A DNA stretch of 64,000 nucleotides from Polaribacter sp. L3A8 (GTDB lineage Bacteria > Bacteroidota > Bacteroidia > Flavobacteriales > Flavobacteriaceae). The position numbers and the translations under genes are program-made. The DNA lies in the NCBI RefSeq assembly GCF_009796785.1, contig NZ_CP047026.1:496001-560000 (forward strand), written 5' to 3'. The notes beneath the pieces were generated by a model. It saw nothing but the letters and a program-made list of their open reading frames with translations. It was not told the DNA's origin and searched no databases. Below are positions 21,863-55,200 of the stretch, one piece after another; the stretch's first letter is position 1, and every line of letters begins with the position of its first letter.

Positions 21863-22170
21863 GTCATTTCGAGCGCAGTCGAGAAATCACATAACAAAAA
21901 ACACAACAATGTCATCACTTTATGGGATTTCTCCCAAAGGTCGAAAAAACAAAACCCCATTTGTCATTGCGAGGTTACGAAGCAATCTGTTAATTTGTAA
22001 CTCAGAATAAACAGATTACTTCGTCCTATCGTCCTCGTAATGACGGTAGGTTTGTCATTGCGAGGAACGAAGCAGTCTCTTTATCTAAACAAAGATTACT
22101 TCATTCGTACCTCATTCGTAATGACACTCGAAACAATCCCCAATTGTCAGTTCGAGCGCTGTCGAGAACT
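21863..22170. repeat. Cluster of REP-like palindromes, types B and A
   Basis: Four elements in a row: type B pair 21863-21947 (GTCATTTCGAGCGCAGTCGA), type A pairs 21963-22044 and 22054-22125 (GTCATTGCGAGG arms with GAAGCAATCTG), and a type B half at 22145-22170. They fill the 458-bp gap after the HxlR gene. Short open frames here are translations of repeat sequence and not genes. Confidence 0.85.
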
Positions 22171-46316: not shown

Positions 46317-49190
46317 TTATGCAGTCATTCCTGTAACAAATACATCAATAAATTTTTTCATTTTAGAGATAATTCTTTCACCAATTTCACGAGCCTTTAA
46401 AATACTTGGTCTATTTTCTAAACATTTAAAAACGTCTTGTCTAATGGGTTCTTGTCCGTTATACACATAGCTATCAATTAAAGAATTGAATTGTTGTTGA
46501 TCTAAGTTTTCTTCATCACAAATTTTTGATAATGCTAAAACTCGTTCTTGTTGCCAAAATTTTTCAAATTCATCAGTAATAGCATCTACATCATTAATAT
46601 GCGGTAAATTTTCTTCTATGAATTTTTCTATGAGTTCTTTTTTACTTCTTAATTTTACATCACCACCTAATAAATCTATAATTGCTTTTTTCTGTTTTTG
46701 AGCTTCTGTTTTATCTTTTACTTTTATTTTAGATAATAACTGTAAAATATAAACGATATTTATTTCATCCCTATGAATTAATTCTAACTCAAAATCTACA
46801 TCGTTTAAAATTGATGTTTTATGAGTTCTTCTTTGTTCGTCTACAAAATCTTTAATATCTAAATATTCGCTTTTATAGTTTTCAAATGTTTGCTCATCAA
46901 TATCTAAAGTTTTCCAGTCGAAATCTACATAAGATTCTAGAACGTTTTTTGCTCTTAAAAGCCTTCTAAACGCTTGTACAAATTGAAATTTCTGCTCCTC
47001 TCCTACTAAATTATCTACACTTTGGTGAGTTGGTGCAATTGTTAATAATGCTTTTAAGGTTTCATCAAATTTTGTAGCAATATCTTCATAAGGTGGCACA
47101 ATTATAGTTTCATTGGCTTCTTTATTAGAAAACAATGTAATGGCTTCATCTGTAGCCTTTTTTAAGTTTCTAAAACATACAATATTACCTTGAGATTTCT
47201 TTTCTCCTAATATTCTATTGGTTCTAGAAAAAGCCTGAATTAAACCATGTTGTTTTAAATTTTTGTCTACATACAAGGTATTTACTTTTTTAGCATCAAA
47301 GCCAGTAAGCATCATATTTACAACAATAACAATGTCTAAACGGTCTTTAGCATCATTAAAATTCTTCTTTTCTCGTTCTTTTAAACGTTTGCTAATGTCT
47401 TTAAAATACTCTTCAAATAATTTACTGTCTTTTGTAGAAAAACTAGTGTTGTACATCTGGTTATAATCTACAATGTATTCATCTAATTTTTCTCTAGAAT
47501 GGCTAGATTTATAGCTTAATTCACTTTCTGCAGCAACATCAAATTCATCGTCTGGTAAATTATCTTGCGCATCTTCATTTGCTTCATTTGCTCCATAAGA
47601 AAAAATAGTTGCAATTCTTAAATTGTGCTCTCCAGCTAATTTTTTAGCTTTAAAAATATCGTAATATTTAATTAAACTTTTAATATTACTTACAGCAAAC
47701 AAGGCAGAAAAATGTTTATTATCTGTTTTTGTACTGTGGTATTTTATAATATAATCTGCAATTTTTTCTAAACGTTTTTCGTCTTTAAAAACTTCTGTTT
47801 TGTCTATATCTTCTACATCAATATCTAGTAATGTGTTGCTTTTCTTTTTGTAACGTCCTATATATTCTATTCCAAATTTTAATACATTATCATCTCCTAT
47901 TGCATCTGTAATTACATATTTGTGCAAACAGTTGCCAAATAAGTCTTTGGTGGTTCTTTTTCCTAAATCGTTTTTAGATGCATTGTCTGCAAAAATGGGT
48001 GTTCCTGTAAAACCAAATAATTGCGAATTTGTAAAGTAGTCGGTAATTAGTTTGTGCGTTTCTCCAAATTGACTTCTATGGCATTCATCAAAAATAAGTA
48101 TTACGCGCTTATTCTTTAACGTTGTTAATTTCTTCTTATACTGTTCTTTAGAAATAGCATTGTTTAATTTCTGAATGGTTGTTAACACTAATTTAGAATC
48201 GCTTGCGAGTTGTTTTACTAGGTTATTGGTGTTTTTGGTAACATCTACACTATCTTTTTTAAAAGAATTAAATTCTTTCATGGTTTGATAGTCTAAATCT
48301 TTTCTATCTACCACAAACAACACTTTATCTACAGATGGCAAATCCATAATAATCTGACTCGCTTTAAATGATGTTAAGGTTTTACCAGAACCCGTTGTGT
48401 GCCATATATATGCGTTGTCTGTATTGTTTTCTACTTGCGCTACTAGTTTTTCTACTGCATAAAATTGGTATGGTCTTAACACCATTAAAATTTTATGTGT
48501 TTGGTTTCTTACAATATACTTGGCAATCATTTTGCCTAAATGATTTGTATTTAAAAAAGCAGCAGTAAAATGGGTTAATTCTCTAATGTTTTTATTCTGT
48601 ACATCCGACCAGAAAAAGGTTTGTTTTACAGACTGTAACTCATTATTAGCAAGGTATTTTGTGTTTACTCCGTTGCTAATTATAAATAGTTGTACGTATT
48701 GAAATAACCCATGATTAGACCAAAAAGAATGTTTTTGATAACGATTAATCTGATTAAATGCTTCTTTTATTTCTAAACCACGTCTTTTTAATTCTATTTG
48801 TACCAATGGCAAACCATTGACTAATAAAGTAACATCGTATCTATTTTTATAAGTACCTTCTTGGGTGATTTGGTTGGTAACTTGAAACAAATTCGCATTC
48901 CAATTTTCACTATCAAAAAAACGAATATAAGTAGCTTCTCCGTTATCATTTACAAACTGAAAACGACCTCTTAACGTTTTGGCTTTATCAAAAACATTAC
49001 CTTTTTCTAAATGATTTAAAATGGCAGAAAATTCTTTATCTGAAAATGTAAGTTGATTAAACGCTTCTAACTGCCTTTTTAAATTAGAAACCAATGAAAC
49101 AACATCTGTTACAGTTACTTTATGATAGCCTAAACCAACTAATTGTTTAATTAGATTGTTTTCTAGTTGAAGTTCTGATTGTTTGCTCAT
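46317..49190 (-). CDS. hsdR: Type I restriction enzyme, HsdR subunit
   Basis: A 957-residue motor-nuclease subunit. The PD-(D/E)xK nuclease shows Asp119 (RYDVTLLVNG) and QIELK at 131-135. The helicase part has Walker A HTTGSGKT near 264-271, DECH at 368-371 and FGFTGTPIF after it, with the last helicase motif in HGLIQAFSRTNRI. The C-terminal helical region for contact with HsdM follows. With HsdM and HsdS it cuts DNA lacking the host methylation after ATP-driven translocation. The frame is intact. It starts 8 bp after the fic gene on the same strand. Confidence 0.95.
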   Translation of the reverse strand: MSKQSELQLENNLIKQLVGLGYHKVTVTDVVSLVSNLKRQLEAFNQLTFSDKEFSAILNHLEKGNVFDKAKTLRGRFQFVNDNGEATYIRFFDSENWNANLFQVTNQITQEGTYKNRYDVTLLVNGLPLVQIELKRRGLEIKEAFNQINRYQKHSFWSNHGLFQYVQLFIISNGVNTKYLANNELQSVKQTFFWSDVQNKNIRELTHFTAAFLNTNHLGKMIAKYIVRNQTHKILMVLRPYQFYAVEKLVAQVENNTDNAYIWHTTGSGKTLTSFKASQIIMDLPSVDKVLFVVDRKDLDYQTMKEFNSFKKDSVDVTKNTNNLVKQLASDSKLVLTTIQKLNNAISKEQYKKKLTTLKNKRVILIFDECHRSQFGETHKLITDYFTNSQLFGFTGTPIFADNASKNDLGKRTTKDLFGNCLHKYVITDAIGDDNVLKFGIEYIGRYKKKSNTLLDIDVEDIDKTEVFKDEKRLEKIADYIIKYHSTKTDNKHFSALFAVSNIKSLIKYYDIFKAKKLAGEHNLRIATIFSYGANEANEDAQDNLPDDEFDVAAESELSYKSSHSREKLDEYIVDYNQMYNTSFSTKDSKLFEEYFKDISKRLKEREKKNFNDAKDRLDIVIVVNMMLTGFDAKKVNTLYVDKNLKQHGLIQAFSRTNRILGEKKSQGNIVCFRNLKKATDEAITLFSNKEANETIIVPPYEDIATKFDETLKALLTIAPTHQSVDNLVGEEQKFQFVQAFRRLLRAKNVLESYVDFDWKTLDIDEQTFENYKSEYLDIKDFVDEQRRTHKTSILNDVDFELELIHRDEINIVYILQLLSKIKVKDKTEAQKQKKAIIDLLGGDVKLRSKKELIEKFIEENLPHINDVDAITDEFEKFWQQERVLALSKICDEENLDQQQFNSLIDSYVYNGQEPIRQDVFKCLENRPSILKAREIGERIISKMKKFIDVFVTGMTA

Positions 49191-49198
49191 AAACTGAT

Positions 49199-50728
49199 TT
49201 AAAAAATTTGCTTATAATTTAATTCTATAGCTTTAATTTCAGTAGCTTTTAATGCTGAAAACTCCTTTTGTAAAGCTCTTTTTGATAATATACCTTCGTT
49301 TTGTTCTAGAAAACGAACCAATAATGCAACCATTTTATCAGGCATTTCAAAATGATTATCTATATACTTTTTAAATACATCATATTTTTGTAAATAGTTT
49401 ACTTCTTCCGGAATTACTCTTTCTAAAGTATCTTCTACACAGTCATATAAAAATTCTGCTTGTTTTGTTGCATTAAAATAACGGTAAAAATCAATGGTTT
49501 TATTTGCAACTTCTACACTATGGTCTTTCGTTTCTTTCCAAGAAATATAATCTAACAAAGGATGTGAATATTCTTCTAAAACATTTTTATAATCGTTTAT
49601 ATGATCTAATATTGATGATGATACGGGAAAAATTACGCCTTGTTGTGTAAACGCCTTTTTTGCTAAAACATGATGAATTATATACCGATGTAAACGACCA
49701 TTACCATCTACAAAAGGATGCATAAAAACAAAACCAAATGCTATAGTAGTAGCTGCTAAAACTGCGTCATAAGTTTCATCTTGTAAAATCTCATTTGTTG
49801 CCGTTAACCCATTTAATAATGGTGTTAAATCTTCATATTTTGCAGAAATATGATCTGGAATTGGTTCTCCTGTACTTCTATCATGTTCACCTATAAAACC
49901 ACCTTCTGTGCGCAAACCCATTTTTGTAAAGCGGCTATTTTCTATGACTATTTGTTGTAAACGTTCTAATTCTGAAATACTTAATTTTTTAGAACCTGCT
50001 TGTCCAATTGCTTTTCCCCAACGAATTGCTCTATTGTTTGTGGGTTTTTCTCCCTCTATGGTAAAAGATGCTTTAGAGTCTTTTAGTAACAAAAATGAAG
50101 ATGCTCGTTGTAATACGTCTTTATGAATACTATTTAGAAAAACATTTTTTTTACTAGCAACATTGGCGCTAATATGATTTTCTAGTTTTTCGGTTTTAAA
50201 AATTAACGGACAAAAATCTACTGTTCCTGGAAGATTATTTACAATACGATGTCTAGAAGATCTTATTCCTTTTACACCATATTGTAATTTTTTATCTAAT
50301 AAAGAAACAAAGTTCCCACTAGTTAAATCTTTTATATTTAATTTAATTCCAAAAAACCATTCGTACAAAAACCAAATTCTACGACTATATTGTCCTAATA
50401 ATTCTAAAGTAATAATGTTTTCTATTTCTTGTTGTGGTATTTTTTCGAATAGTTTTTTTAAGACTAATAAGTTAACTCCTTCATATTTTAAGGCAAATAT
50501 AAGTTGCTTGTAAAGTGTTTCTTCTGGTTGATGTCTAGATGTAAATACTTTAAAATTTTCTGTAGTGTACTTTCTCTTTTTAAAACTAATTAATGCCAAT
50601 TGATTTGGTATTGGCACTTCTAAATTATAGGCTTCAATAATAGCTCCATAACCTACTAAATAGGCTTCTTCTGGTGCTGTTTTACCGCGAAAAACAGTTA
50701 TTTTAAGTGAAAAAGGCTTATTATTCAT
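49199..50728 (-). CDS. Fic-family protein in the type I R-M locus
   Basis: A 509-residue protein from the ATG at 50728. The Fic motif HPFVDGNGRLHR begins at about His337, with all key residues for AMP transfer present. A possible N-terminal inhibitory motif FTIEGEKPTNN (the S/TxxxE/G N type) lies upstream. A C-terminal winged-helix-like region may bind DNA. Fic proteins between hsdS and hsdR recur in Bacteroidota, but their role is not settled. It could modulate the R-M complex or another target. An upstream frame to 50830 only translates short tandem repeats and is rejected. Confidence 0.88.
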   Translation of the reverse strand: MNNKPFSLKITVFRGKTAPEEAYLVGYGAIIEAYNLEVPIPNQLALISFKKRKYTTENFKVFTSRHQPEETLYKQLIFALKYEGVNLLVLKKLFEKIPQQEIENIITLELLGQYSRRIWFLYEWFFGIKLNIKDLTSGNFVSLLDKKLQYGVKGIRSSRHRIVNNLPGTVDFCPLIFKTEKLENHISANVASKKNVFLNSIHKDVLQRASSFLLLKDSKASFTIEGEKPTNNRAIRWGKAIGQAGSKKLSISELERLQQIVIENSRFTKMGLRTEGGFIGEHDRSTGEPIPDHISAKYEDLTPLLNGLTATNEILQDETYDAVLAATTIAFGFVFMHPFVDGNGRLHRYIIHHVLAKKAFTQQGVIFPVSSSILDHINDYKNVLEEYSHPLLDYISWKETKDHSVEVANKTIDFYRYFNATKQAEFLYDCVEDTLERVIPEEVNYLQKYDVFKKYIDNHFEMPDKMVALLVRFLEQNEGILSKRALQKEFSALKATEIKAIELNYKQIF

Positions 50729-50825
50729 TGATTTTGGTGAAAAATAGTTTTTTAAATTTTGGTGAAAAACACTTACAATTAGTGAAAAACACTTATAATT
50801 TACAGTAATTGGTGAAAAATACTTA
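50706..50825 (-). repeat. Five phased GTGAAAAA repeats at the fic start
   Basis: Copies of (G/A)GTGAAAAA begin at 50706, 50736, 50761, 50781 and 50811, spaced 30, 25, 20 and 30 bp. Most continue CACTTA or TACTTA. They cover the promoter region and the first codons of fic and could bind a regulator in phase with the helix. Confidence 0.6.
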
Positions 50826-50895
50826 TTCAAATATAACTAAAAAACGTGCGAAACTCTTAAAAAAGATGCGTAAAACATTGTTTTTCTTTCCTTCT

Positions 50896-51095
50896 GTCAT
50901 TGCGAGGCTTTTTTGCCGAAGCAATCTGTTTGAGTCCTCTGTTATTGCGAGTTAGTTATTGCGAGGTACGAAGCAAAGCAATCTGTTTGTTGGGTTTCCT
51001 ACTCTTGTTTTAACCCGTATGCATTTTCTGTATGTTTTTACTCTTGCGTTCTCACTCTTGCGTGGGATTGCTTTGTCGTGCCTCCTCGCAATGAC
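50896..51095. repeat. REP-like type A elements left of the GIY-YIG gene
   Basis: Several arms of GTCATTGCGAGG and GAAGCAATCTG (from 50896 and from about 50955), then an inner GTTGGGTTTCCT stretch and a closing arm GGGATTGCTTTGTCGTGCCT ending CGCAATGAC at 51095. The closing arm ends 8 bp from the GIY-YIG stop codon. Confidence 0.85.
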
Positions 51096-51390: not shown

Positions 51391-51426
51391 AATCTAATAC
51401 GTCATTGCAAATAAACTTAATTAACA

Positions 51427-52134
51427 CTCGTCATTGCGAAGAATGAAGCAATCTGCTCGTTGGGTTTCCTGCATTTTATTAAACAAACATCTGTTGCAAC
51501 AACCTTTTTTTAAACGCTTGTGTTCTCACTCTTGTGTGGGATTGCTTCATTCTTCGCAATGACACTCATGCGCTCGTCATTGCTTTAAAACTCGTCATTG
51601 CGAGGCACGAAGCAATCTGTTCGTTGGGTTTCCTGCATTTTATTTAACAAACATCTGTTGCAACAACCTTTTTTTAAACGCTTGTGTTCTCACTCTTGTG
51701 TGGGATTGCTTCATTCTTCGCAATGACACTCATGCGCTCGTCATTGCTTTAAAACTCGTCATTGCGAAGAATGAAGCAATCTGTTCGTTGGGTTTCCTGC
51801 GTTTTATTAAACAAACATTTGCTGCAACAACCTTTTTTTAAACGCTTGTGTTCTCATTCTTGTTTGGGATTGCTTCATTCTTCGCAATGACACTCATGCG
51901 CTCGTCATTGCTTTAAAACTCGTCATTGCGAGGCACGAAGCAATCTGTTCGTTGGGTTTCCTGCATTTTATTTAACAAACATCTGTTGCAACAACCTTTT
52001 TTTAAACGCTTGTGTTCTCACTCTTGTGTGGGATTGCTTCATTCTTCGCAATGACACTCATGCGCTCGTCATTGCTTTAAAACTCGTCATTGCGAAGAAT
52101 GAAGCAATCTGCTCGTTGGGTTTCCTGCTCTTTC
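51427..52134. repeat. 164-bp tandem array built from REP arms and hsdS tails
   Basis: Four full units start at 51427, 51591, 51755 and 51919, and a fifth runs into the hsdS 3' end from 52083. The period is exactly 164 bp. Each unit has an opening arm GTCATTGCGA, GTTGGGTTTCCT, a 46-bp copy of the hsdS 3' end including the stop, and a closing arm GATTGCTTCATTCTTCGCAA. Units 2 and 4 appear identical, and units 1 and 3 have fully complementary arms. Nothing here looks like an independent gene. Confidence 0.9.
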
Positions 52135-53523
52135 TTAAACAAACATTTGCTGCAACAACCCTTTTTTAAACGCTTGTGTTTTTTCTATTTGTGTTTGTAC
52201 ATTTTCTATTTTTGTATCGATAGCACTTAAATAAGTAGCTATTTTTTGTTGTTCTTTTAGGGATGGAACAGATATTTTTAATAATTTTATATCTTTTCCA
52301 CTAACGGCTGTAAACGTACTTCCTTGTTCTAAACTAATCCATTTTAATTCATAGCTTAATAAAAATTGATATAAAAACTCAATATTAGAATTTTTATTAT
52401 TTTTAATAGAACAAACTCCTCTACCAATACAAGCATTATGTAAAGATTTAGCTATTGAACCAACAGGTGCTCTAACAGTTAAAATTAAATCACCTATTTC
52501 ACAAGTTTTTGTAGGTTCATTTGTCCATTGTCTTGGGCTTGTAATTCTTCCTTTAATATCTGCGTTTCCTTGGATTAGAAAAGAACCTTTACCTTTTTCA
52601 TTATATGATTTTGAGTCTGGTGATTGCCCCATAGTTATTATAGAAACCTCCCCCAACTTCTTCTCTTCCCAATCAGGGAAAGAGGTTTGTGCATTTTTCG
52701 AATTAGAGATTGCTTCGTCCTTTGTCCTCGCAATGACGTTTGTATTGGTATCCTCTGGTTTAAAACGCAATTGCTGACTAAACAATTGTTGCATTGCACC
52801 TTTTTTATAGTTTTCTAATAACTGCTTTTTAGTGGTGAGTTGTTGTATTTTGGTATCTACGGATGTTAAAAATGATGCTATTTTATGTTGTTCTGGAATA
52901 CTCGTTAATTTAACAAAGACTTTACTCAAACTATCTTGACCAACATTATATCTTGTACTGCCTCCACTTTTTGTAGTTACTTCCTTTCTTGCTGATGAAG
53001 TTTTTAGTAAATAATTCATAAAATATGGATTATAATCTACTTTTTTTCTTCCTCTAATCACAAATCCACCAAATACAGCTCTTTTATTTTCATCAACATA
53101 AACATTGGCTTGTCCTACTTCTTCCCTTGTTTCTGAGCTTCTTTGAAAAAGTACATCACCATAAACTACTTCATTTTTTTCCAGTTCTTTTTCTGTAACT
53201 TCTACTTTTCCTATAATTGAATTATAAGTAATTACAGATTCACCAATAATATCAAGGACATTAATAAATTTTATACCAGAACCATATTTTTCTTTATCAG
53301 AATTTAAACCATTTTTAAAAGTGAATAAATTTCCTAAAGTGGTTTCTTCCCAATCACCATCAAATTCCTTAAAGCGAAGTTTAGGAATTAAAGAAACAGA
53401 TTGCTTTGTCGTTCCTCCTCGCAATGACAAAACCTCTTGCAATTCGTCATTGCGAGGCACGAAGCAATCTGTTTGTTGATTACTTGTATTCTTTATTGTT
53501 ATTTTGTTTTCGTCTTTCATCAT
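52135..53523 (-). CDS. hsdS: Type I R-M specificity subunit HsdS with in-frame REP insertions
   Basis: A 462-residue specificity subunit with two target recognition domains: TRD1 about residues 55-200 and TRD2 about 285-415. Each opens with the WEE-x-x-LG motif and is followed by a conserved helical spacer (QKIASFLTSVDTKIQQL and QQKIATYLSAIDTKIENV). Residues about 18-43 (CFVPRNDE, then LSLRGGTTKQS) and about 263-273 (VIARTKDEAISN) are translations of REP palindromes. Each sits just before a TRD. The frame stays open throughout. It lies 52 bp after hsdM. The last 46 bp recur in the downstream tandem array. Confidence 0.92.
   Translation of the reverse strand: MMKDENKITIKNTSNQQTDCFVPRNDELQEVLSLRGGTTKQSVSLIPKLRFKEFDGDWEETTLGNLFTFKNGLNSDKEKYGSGIKFINVLDIIGESVITYNSIIGKVEVTEKELEKNEVVYGDVLFQRSSETREEVGQANVYVDENKRAVFGGFVIRGRKKVDYNPYFMNYLLKTSSARKEVTTKSGGSTRYNVGQDSLSKVFVKLTSIPEQHKIASFLTSVDTKIQQLTTKKQLLENYKKGAMQQLFSQQLRFKPEDTNTNVIARTKDEAISNSKNAQTSFPDWEEKKLGEVSIITMGQSPDSKSYNEKGKGSFLIQGNADIKGRITSPRQWTNEPTKTCEIGDLILTVRAPVGSIAKSLHNACIGRGVCSIKNNKNSNIEFLYQFLLSYELKWISLEQGSTFTAVSGKDIKLLKISVPSLKEQQKIATYLSAIDTKIENVQTQIEKTQAFKKGLLQQMFV
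52705..52737 (-). repeat. REP type A arm inside hsdS, before TRD2
   Basis: AGATTGCTTCGTCC...CCTCGCAATGAC lies in the coding sequence, in frame, in the linker between the first spacer and TRD2. Confidence 0.85.
53396..53472 (-). repeat. REP type A inverted pair inside hsdS, before TRD1
   Basis: Both arms are present: ACAGATTGCTTTGTC...CGCAATGAC at 53396-53428 and GTCATTGCGAGGCACGAAGC at 53446-53472. They are translated as the N-terminal extension ahead of TRD1. Confidence 0.88.
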
Positions 53524-53526
53524 AAA

Positions 53527-53565
53527 CAGATTGCTTCACTTTCACTGCGTTTCGTTCGCAATGAC
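53527..53565. repeat. REP type A remnant between hsdM and hsdS
   Basis: CAGATTGCTTCACTTTCACT to CGCAATGACG is a diverged REP arm that fills most of the 52-bp gap between the two genes. Confidence 0.75.
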
Positions 53566-53575
53566 GCGTATAAAA

Positions 53576-55150
53576 TTAAAAAGGAGTTTCAATATTTAAT
53601 TCTTTACAAAAATCTGATATCGTTGCATCAGTTACTGCAATATCTTTTTCTAATGCTTTTAAATCCGCAGAAATACTTAAAAGGTCAATTGCTTCTTCCT
53701 CTTCAAACGTATCTACATAACGTGGTATGTTTAAATTGTAATCGTTTTCTTGTACTTCTTCTAAACTGGCAACATAACTATATTTGTCTTTGGTTTGTCT
53801 TGTTCTGTAGGTATCTATAATTTCTTGTAAATGCGCATCTGTTAATACATTTTGCGTTTTTACTTTATCAAAATGATTGCTTGCATCAATAAATAAAATA
53901 TTTCGACTGCGCTCAATATGACTGCTTCTGTCTTTTTTTAATACCAATATACATGTGGGAATACTTGTACCAAAAAAGATGTTAGACGGCAAACCAATAA
54001 CGGCATCTAATTGGTTTTTATCTTCAATTAAATACTTTCTAATATGTCCTTCTGCTGCACCTCTAAACAAAACACCATGCGGTAAAACGCACGCCATGGT
54101 TCCGTTTTCATCTAACTGATGAATCATGTGTTGTACAAAGGCAAAATCTGCTTTACTTTTTGGCGCCATTTTACCATACGGAGAAAAACGTTCGTCACTA
54201 ATAATACTATCTGGATTCCAATTGGCAGAAAAAGGCGGATTTGCTACAATGGCTTCAAAACGTTTGTCTATGTGTTTTGGTGATGGATTTACTAAGGTAT
54301 CTTCATTATAAATATCAAACTTTTTATAATGTACATCATGCATAATCATGTTCATTCTGCATAAGTTGTACGTAGTTGGGTTGCTTTCTTGTCCGTAAAA
54401 GCCACCAACCTCTTTTACTTCTTTAGAAACTCTTAATAGTAAAGAACCAGAACCACAGGTTGGGTCGTACACAGATTTTAAACGTTCTTTATCTGTAGTT
54501 ACAATTTGTGCTAATATTTTAGAAACTTGTTGCGGTGTATAAAATTCTCCCGCTTTTTTTCCTGCTCCAGAAGCAAACTGACCAATTAAATATTCATACG
54601 CATCGCCTAACAAATCATTTTCATTGTTTTCTAAATCAAAATCAATGCCTTCTAAATGCGTTAATACTTTTACAATCAATTCATTTTTAGATTCTTCTGT
54701 TTTTCCTAGTTTACTACTTGTTAAATCTAAATCTTCAAAAAGGTTTCCAAAATCGTCTTCACTTTCACTTCCCATAGTGCTTTGCTCTATGTTGGTGAGT
54801 ACTTTTTGTAAATCTTCTAAAATAAATTTATTGGTTCCACCAGAGTTTCCTCTTTTGGCTAATTCGCTAAATAATTCTGTAGGTTTTAAATAATAACCCA
54901 ACGCATCTAACGCATCTAACTTTATTTCTTGTAATAAGATTTCTTCTGCTTCATGTCCTATCACTTCGTGATATTCTAAACCATCTGGTTTTAAAATTAC
55001 ATTAGCGTGTAAAGACATTTTTTTACTTAAATACTTGTAAAAGATAAAGCCTAGTATATAATCTCTAAAATCATCAGCATCCATATTACCTCTTAAATCG
55101 TTGGCAATACTCCATAAAGTTTGATGCAATTGTAATTGGTTTTCTGACAT
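53576..55150 (-). CDS. hsdM: Type I R-M methyltransferase subunit HsdM
   Basis: A 524-residue N6-adenine methyltransferase. An N-terminal helical HsdM_N domain comes first, then the SAM-binding motif DPTCGSG near residue 230 and the catalytic NPPF at residues 304-307. It methylates adenine in the sequence chosen by HsdS and protects host DNA. Residues about 409-418 (SSHIERSRN) are a translated type B REP arm inserted in a surface region after VLKK. The family normally passes directly from LVLKK to ILFIDAS here. It is first in the hsdM-hsdS transcript. Confidence 0.94.
   Translation of the reverse strand: MSENQLQLHQTLWSIANDLRGNMDADDFRDYILGFIFYKYLSKKMSLHANVILKPDGLEYHEVIGHEAEEILLQEIKLDALDALGYYLKPTELFSELAKRGNSGGTNKFILEDLQKVLTNIEQSTMGSESEDDFGNLFEDLDLTSSKLGKTEESKNELIVKVLTHLEGIDFDLENNENDLLGDAYEYLIGQFASGAGKKAGEFYTPQQVSKILAQIVTTDKERLKSVYDPTCGSGSLLLRVSKEVKEVGGFYGQESNPTTYNLCRMNMIMHDVHYKKFDIYNEDTLVNPSPKHIDKRFEAIVANPPFSANWNPDSIISDERFSPYGKMAPKSKADFAFVQHMIHQLDENGTMACVLPHGVLFRGAAEGHIRKYLIEDKNQLDAVIGLPSNIFFGTSIPTCILVLKKDRSSHIERSRNILFIDASNHFDKVKTQNVLTDAHLQEIIDTYRTRQTKDKYSYVASLEEVQENDYNLNIPRYVDTFEEEEAIDLLSISADLKALEKDIAVTDATISDFCKELNIETPF
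53898..53923 (-). repeat. REP type B arm inside hsdM
   Basis: ATATTTCGACTGCGCTCAAT and ATGACT match the complement of the type B arm (GTCATTTCGAGCGCAGTCGA) seen at 19672 and 21863. It is in frame and adds about ten residues. Confidence 0.75.
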
Positions 55151-55173: not shown

Positions 55174-55200
55174 AGATTGCTTCATTATATTCGCAATGAC
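55174..55200. repeat. REP type A remnant upstream of hsdM
   Basis: AGATTGCTTCATTATATTCG followed by CAATGAC lies 24 bp before the hsdM start and marks the edge of the REP-rich R-M locus. Confidence 0.75.

Follow-up and report, generated by a model that had tools for sequence, protein, structure and literature searches.

Palindromic repeats with a CGTC tag at one end and AT at the first positions of the stem occur across several phyla, with Bacteroidetes among the hosts, and have been united in the CGTC superfamily of REPs (Di Nocera et al. 2013, PMC3733652). According to the parts of that survey drawn on here, they are mostly intergenic, are often arranged as inverted dimers and are sometimes located in ORFs, many of the reported cases being DNA synthesis and repair genes, and they apparently lack a dedicated transposase as well as an association with a gene of the RAYT type. 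The RAYT-REP pairs, or REPtrons, treated in the same source consist of a gene for a Y1/HUH transposase bracketed by the REPs that it presumably moves, with many enzyme-less copies elsewhere. Among the repeats assigned to the CGTC superfamily by the survey are RPE-4 and RPE-6 of Rickettsia, which are translated in frame within protein genes, and dRS3 of Neisseria, arrays of which near variable genes (NIMEs) are suggested in the sections cited to promote recombination with incoming DNA (PMC3898611, PMC2911385). Repeats of a different kind border the recognition domains (TRDs) of type I specificity genes: in the DOMO of hsdS as outlined for Helicobacter pylori and others (Furuta et al. 2011, PMC3077401), the gene has the structure x-TRD1-y-x-TRD2-y, and TRDs are found at either position.

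The window, i.e. the whole stretch of 64,000 nt of the Polaribacter sp. L3A8 genome that was analysed, contains an EcoR124-like type I R-M operon, having an HsdR with EcoR124_C, an HsdM with HsdM_N and an HsdS with two TRDs (PF12008, PF12161 and PF01420 were matched in two stretches). REPs and a small gene for a GIY-YIG nuclease are located in and around this operon as follows (window positions):

46317..49190, minus strand: hsdR with EcoR124-like C-terminal domain (PF12008 1.5e-61, PF04313)
49199..50830, minus strand: Fic-domain gene between the GIY-YIG gene and hsdR (PF02661 1.1e-8)
50896..50926, minus strand: REP between the GIY-YIG and Fic genes
about 50955: further, degenerate REP copy between the GIY-YIG and Fic genes
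51066..51095, plus strand: REP 7 bp past the GIY-YIG stop codon
51103..51390, minus strand: small GIY-YIG nuclease gene, 95 aa, with a REP on either side (PF01541 3.5e-18)
51421..52180, no strand: array of 4.6 units of 164 bp that comprise REP pairs and duplicates of the 3′ end of hsdS (..KKRLLQQMFV)
51430..51453, minus strand: REP 39 bp ahead of the GIY-YIG start, the first REP of the array
52135..53523, minus strand: hsdS, type I specificity subunit, 462 aa (PF01420 E=3.7e-31)
52270..52671, minus strand: TRD2, approximately residues 285-418 (alignment and model)
52708..52737, plus strand: complete linker REP before TRD2, read as VIARTKDEAI
52909..53352, minus strand: TRD1, approximately residues 58-205 (alignment and model)
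53399..53428, plus strand: N-terminal REP 2, inverted relative to REP 1, read as SLRGGTTKQS
53446..53469, minus strand: N-terminal REP 1, read as DCFVPRND on the coding strand
53529..53565, plus strand: REP with a long loop and both arms, located between hsdM and hsdS (arm scan)
53576..55150, minus strand: hsdM (PF02384, PF12161)
55175..55200, plus strand: REP upstream of hsdM

The units of the array copy the 3′ end of hsdS, which implies that duplication, recombination or slippage has happened at this gene; no TRD was found in the array. A second hsdS 3′ end is also present in a Polaribacter sp. record (L013, 10515-10589), about 450 bp downstream of hsdS and beyond an unrelated ORF. At its 5′ end, the Fic gene has a 20-bp tandem repeat (window 50762-50800), and Fic genes are located close to the GIY-YIG gene and its REPs also in G278, G455, G175 and Maribacter.

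Within hsdS, three REPs of the form GATTGCTTY-n-CGCAATGAC are translated as part of the protein. The initial annotation had described an inverted REP pair ahead of TRD1 and a single REP arm ahead of TRD2, both in frame and both at the domain borders; the pair is indeed present with both members complete, and the repeat ahead of TRD2 has the position assigned to it but turns out to be an entire REP with both arms, all three keeping the reading frame of hsdS. A typical REP has a stop in one of its six reading frames, and the N-terminal and linker REPs of this hsdS are read in different frames. In an AF2 model of HsdS built from 30 sequences (mean pLDDT 74.6, pTM 0.58), the long segments with a pLDDT below 50 are residues 1-46 and 258-276 and correspond to the REP-encoded stretches, while two short segments of this kind, 303-311 and 395-400, fall in TRD2. 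With the REP-encoded residues located in low-confidence segments of this model, tolerance alone is enough to explain the position of the REPs.

Genome-wide, 54 exact copies of the REP were found when gaps of 2-12 nt were allowed (56 with gaps up to 16); 13 of the 54 lie inside the window, and 12 of those 13 at the R-M locus. The reversed pattern, searched as a control, had 0 matches in this genome as compared with the 54 true ones and 0 matches across 166 genomes of the genus, and the number of REP matches is beyond chance. With a CGTC tag adjoining a palindrome that begins with AT, as seen for CGTCATTGCG...GAAGCAATC in the linker alignment and the arrays, the repeat belongs to the CGTC superfamily, with which it also shares the mostly intergenic location, the frequent inverted dimers, the occasional presence in ORFs and a host from the Bacteroidetes. 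In contrast, families 1 to 4 of the superfamily, as characterised in the survey sections used here (PMC3733652), have stems of 8-9 bp, loops of 4-5 nt and CCA-like tails, whereas the strict stem of the present REP (ATTGC/GCAAT) comprises 5 bp, its loops are longer and variable, and its tail is CTG/CTC; it is therefore not filed under any of these families. The lack of a RAYT-type partner is common to both as well: no Y1/HUH transposase flanked by REPs, as in a REPtron, was found in this genome, and a RAYT was rejected as the mobilising enzyme, since the sole match to PF01797 (Y1_Tnp) has no REP of the window family in its 3.5-kb stretch.

As for the presence in genes, 32 stretches surrounding REPs located away from the R-M loci were checked. 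Of the 45 REPs at no more than one mismatch which they contain, 44 fall outside every ATG-started ORF of at least 100 aa, as does the REP at window position 21963, and the single exception lies 10 codons into a 203-aa ORF. As far as examined, REPs of this genome are clearly within a gene in two cases, hsdS itself and, at 641 kb, a decayed hsdS which likewise has a REP before TRD2; a third hsdS, at 2.74 Mb, has no REP at up to two mismatches. The RPEs of Rickettsia, though similarly translated in frame, reside in various proteins according to the parts of the literature cited, unlike the present repeat with its confinement, as far as examined, to hsdS, its relic and one possible N-terminal case. 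G010 has a relic that shares this TRD2 half and likewise contains stops. Such orphan decayed hsdS halves, in which the same TRD2 is combined with a REP in the linker, were seen in two species (G000:C1:640922-641542, L009; and L136, 9523-10130), apparently at the same chromosomal place, as the same gene follows.

The placement of REPs at TRD borders, as pointed out in the initial annotation, is real and recurs across genera. In a survey of 97 loci, 78 of which were recognised as type I loci with adjacent hsdM and hsdS, 17 hsdS ORFs contain REPs, 34 in all at up to two mismatches: 27 are located at ORF residues 1-59 and seven at residues 238-285, i.e. in the linker between TRD1 and TRD2, where all seven share one orientation, and none of the 34 lies inside a TRD or a conserved region. 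Under uniform and independent placement this would correspond to P of about 6e-22, a value that is far too optimistic given the relatedness of the sequences. Two of the 34 (L014, L133) are located ahead of the first Met, and a further one (L274) starts at this residue. Among the hosts are Lacinutrix venerupis, Maribacter caenipelagi and members of the window's genus, and REP-bearing hsdS were found in three genera outside the window's genus (G278, G406, G455), which may overlap with the two species named. Many of these genes have the inverted N-terminal pair; a single N-terminal REP is present in G085, G063, G064, G278, G406 and G455, and none by the REP motif in G142. The REP-bearing linkers that were printed begin with LRFKP, the REP-free ones with LRFK[D/N/A], apart from one exception without the motif (L273), which suggests one old insertion of a linker REP that was spread by exchange. 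A strict pattern of a REP arm followed by FPDWE matched six of the 166 genus genomes and, among 397 genomes of the family, only the own genome; it is too strict, as it missed the linker REP in G455, outside the genus.

A block of about 280-530 bp which is conserved downstream of hsdS in G116, G021, G077, G023 and G161 covers the GIY-YIG gene. Its product is a member of the GIY-YIG family by its PF01541 match and the conserved Y, Y, R, E and N, and the nuclease motif is intact: Y18, G20, R28, H32, E66 and N85 are retained in all 17 aligned sequences, which reach to the Proteobacteria, and Y7 in at least 90%. Among the matches listed from 299 genomes of the family, 11 relatives have 68-80% identity, the next ones at most 61%. 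When up to two mismatches are allowed, a REP is found no more than 500 bp from the gene in each of the 11; with respect to exact REPs, 18 of the 31 copies in those 11 genomes lie within 500 bp of the GIY-YIG gene where 0.011 would be expected, one genome (G178, locus L251) having none within this distance. In the nine close-relative genomes with only two or three exact REPs each, the corresponding number is 16 out of 23. The association of the nuclease gene with REPs is strong. Of the best 30 loci of the 299-genome search, counting the own one, 21 are accompanied by a REP at a distance of up to 500 bp. For all GIY-YIG loci looked at, the numbers are 37 with and 38 without a REP at this distance out of 75, where one of the 37 (L235) came from the REP search and was therefore bound to have REPs; the three other small GIY-YIG genes of the Polaribacter genome have no REP within 500 bp. 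REP-flanked copies cluster in a tree of 72 GIY-YIG proteins, with 5 changes for the REP-only group as compared to 12.3 upon shuffling.

Also hsdS and the nuclease gene are coupled. Of the type I loci, 75 extend at least 900 bp beyond hsdS; the GIY-YIG gene is found at most 1.5 kb downstream of hsdS in 13 of them, and the hsdS ORF contains REPs in 11 of these 13 but in only six of the 62 loci without the gene (p = 1.6e-7, Fisher's exact test). Both this test and the tree comparison still contain shared ancestry or recombination. More distant GIY-YIG genes were observed between hsdM and hsdS without the window REP (L022, 4476-4739; L024, 8633-8896), and three loci (L205, L210, L235) have GIY-YIG genes with 8-20 adjoining REPs and no hsdS in the 3-kb stretch. 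Elsewhere, close relatives of the gene reside in polysaccharide gene clusters (G178, G394), and others beside the gene of an SLFN-type helicase (G309) or genes of RNase_T/GIY-YIG proteins (G309, G332). GIY-YIG genes with REPs at L280 and L281 lie inside polysaccharide biosynthesis clusters, another type of fast-evolving locus. The orientation of the nearest REPs around the gene is mixed in the 37 REP-flanked Flavobacteriaceae loci, and fixed terminal inverted repeats were consequently rejected for the flavobacterial unit.

Homologues outside the family are accompanied by CGTC hairpins of their own. A tblastn search against a plasmid collection yielded 33 records, of which 16 were fetched and examined. 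Hairpins with a CGTC tag, the sequence being in each case that of the respective taxon, are present within about 450 bp of the GIY-YIG gene in 12 of the 16, and on both sides in 11: Shinella (two records), Rhizobium CIAT894, S. meliloti, Neorhizobium, Sphingobium (three), Azospirillum lipoferum, Aeromonas caviae, Photobacterium, where the hairpin is on one side, and N. gonorrhoeae. As the three Sphingobium records represent one locus, this amounts to about 10 of 14 independent places. In Planktothrix, Spirosoma, R. tumorigenes and Sinorhizobium K101, i.e. four of the 16, there is no CGTC hairpin near the gene. For six records, 4, 4, 4, 3, 2 and 2 hairpins were counted in 1.18 kb at the gene, as compared with 2, 1, 0, 2, 0 and 1 per 50-kb control, and opposite orientations on the two sides are common in the proteobacterial records. 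The Photobacterium and Neisseria hairpins are common throughout the stretch, so that their nearness to the gene says little; in the gonococcal record the homologue lies inside a dRS3 array, and with almost 700 copies of dRS3 per meningococcal genome according to the part of PMC3898611 used here, nearness proves nothing for this repeat. The Azospirillum homologue is located between sufB and sufC. In Planktothrix (L289), the gene has a type IIL R-M gene on one side and a DISARM gene on the other. As is typical of mobile elements, the same element is found at unrelated sites, namely in the interval between hsdS and hsdR, in polysaccharide clusters, beside genes for an SLFN helicase or for RNase_T/GIY-YIG proteins, and between sufB and sufC.

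A GIY-YIG partner sets the present repeat apart from the CGTC superfamily as described so far. The arrangement resembles the RAYT-REP pairs in that an enzyme gene is bracketed by REPs of which many enzyme-less copies exist elsewhere, and differs from them in the enzyme, a GIY-YIG nuclease here and a Y1/HUH transposase there. No publication joining GIY-YIG nucleases to REPs, and none on REPs in hsdS, was recognised among the open-licence papers listed.

On balance, we consider it probable that a mobile unit of the form REP-GIY-YIG-REP, resident at hsdS, has seeded REPs into and around this gene. CGTC-tagged REPs would travel with the small nuclease gene, the unit would have its place between hsdS and hsdR of the EcoR124-like operon, and it would be the source of the REP copies within hsdS and in its surroundings. 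In the coding sequence, such copies would survive only in the N-terminal tail and in the linker ahead of TRD2, two long and flexible places at which additions in frame would be harmless. We infer that the nuclease might nick or cut at REPs and so spread them through break repair, and cleavage at REPs may incidentally aid the import of foreign hsdS pieces. In two genomes (G034, G389) the unit is present while hsdS is free of REPs, which plausibly represents an early stage of seeding; in turn, six hsdS ORFs have REPs without an adjacent nuclease gene, for which the mobile unit would have to be lost or the REPs acquired by transfer.

The direction of cause could also be the reverse, the nuclease using REPs as landing sites. 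According to this alternative, the REPs are older selfish or structural repeats, the GIY-YIG gene codes for a free-standing nuclease of the homing type that inserts at them, and the REPs in hsdS are unrelated neutral insertions which are tolerated like the RPEs of Rickettsia. REPs inside ORFs are known from other taxa, as mentioned in the survey sections cited (PMC3733652), many REPs of the Polaribacter genome lie away from any close GIY-YIG gene, and the gene occurs at unrelated places such as between sufB and sufC in Azospirillum. However, that most exact REPs of the nine REP-poor relatives are near the nuclease gene is hard to explain by pre-existing REPs, and REPs in clear ORFs of this genome are almost confined to hsdS, so that we regard this alternative as rather unlikely.

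The initial annotation had proposed that the REPs are sites of TRD shuffling, where recombination among the copies in hsdS, between genes and in the downstream array would swap or invert TRDs and thereby change specificity. TRDs do turn over between genomes: the window and G116 have TRD1 in common (88% aa identity) with unrelated TRD2, and the window and G023 share neither TRD despite 94% identical hsdM DNA. REPs are located at both TRD borders in many species. Among related genomes the TRDs differ rather than being shared, and the REPs in hsdS are present and non-randomly placed rather than absent or scattered, the opposite of the outcome that the initial annotation had named as refuting. The duplicated hsdS 3′ ends in the array moreover testify to recombination or slippage at this very place. 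A comparison of break points, as recommended with the proposal, bore out the exchange between genomes but yielded a single break at the end of a REP: G077 and G085 are 94% identical until the exact CGTC end of the N-terminal REP and then diverge, and since similarity resumes briefly (PKLRFKEF) before TRD1, this break may be a further REP insertion and not a point of TRD exchange.

One argument against shuffling by REPs is that turnover is just as complete without them. Of the 78 loci, 70 could be split into TRDs (15 of the 17 with REPs) and eight were dropped; for pairs with an HsdM identity of at least 78%, TRD1 is common to five and TRD2 to three of 85 pairs in which both hsdS have REPs, to one and three, respectively, of 62 pairs in which neither has, and to none of 30 mixed pairs for either domain. 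Dedicated TRD shuffling by REPs was rejected on these grounds, although the data are saturated, with almost no TRDs shared, and a modest effect on the rate could be missed. A crossover between single REPs within the window hsdS was rejected as well, because recombination of an N-terminal with the linker REP would result in a frameshift; of the REP-bearing linkers compared, those of G116 and G455 alone are in the same frame as an N-terminal REP over their entire length. Furthermore, no silent hsdS or TRD cassette adjoins the expressed gene at this locus, as it does in phase-variable, inverting hsdS systems, the relic at 641 kb and the unrelated hsdS at 2.74 Mb being the only other sequences of this kind, and homology is more extensive in the conserved regions CR1 and CR2, where the closest species are up to 93-94% identical in DNA along some 130-150 bp, than in a REP of 24-30 bp. 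As in the DOMO, repeats are found at the TRD borders and the same TRD occurs at positions 1 and 2 (at the protein level, across species and in hsdS other than those with the window's TRDs), an example being TRD1 of Maribacter and TRD2 of G077 with 68.5% aa identity; such position changes occur between REP-free hsdS, too. In the parts of the DOMO work cited (PMC3077401) the repeats belong to hsdS itself, whereas here a genome-wide palindrome family has been added. REP homology as the cause of TRD swaps or inversions is accordingly not borne out, and based on between-species sequence comparisons REPs are not established as a TRD-shuffling mechanism, which appears quite improbable.

Even less credible is the N-terminal pair as an RNA element in which an mRNA hairpin soon after the start codon would limit HsdS translation and balance methylation and restriction, for although the pair forms a stable hairpin (-41.7 kcal/mol, z -7.2, with 0 of 200 shuffles as stable) and is found inverted in many REP-bearing hsdS, it is not conserved, with a single N-terminal REP in six genomes and none by motif in G142, and the linker REP is left unexplained.

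Going beyond the locus, one might speculate, albeit tentatively, that CGTC REPs in general (flavobacterial, rhizobial, sphingobial, of the Neisseria dRS3 type and possibly RPE-4/6 of Rickettsia) are non-autonomous and depend on a small GIY-YIG nuclease for their mobilisation, forming a class of REPs plus nuclease on a fold unrelated to RAYTs, and that cleavage turns the loci in which they have settled, such as hsdS and polysaccharide clusters, into hot spots for the import of alleles, the element in turn gaining from fast-evolving neighbours.

Taken together, the REPs of hsdS provide a clear case of repeats translated in frame at exactly those two borders at which a modular specificity protein is flexible, and their striking position can be kept apart from the unproven claim that they drive TRD exchange. 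The GIY-YIG gene, flanked by taxon-specific hairpins in Bacteroidota as well as Proteobacteria, is a candidate partner enzyme for CGTC REPs, and with such a concrete candidate the question of the missing transposase becomes testable with one purified protein. The same pairing of nuclease and palindrome in quite different bacteria may explain the spread of such repeats.
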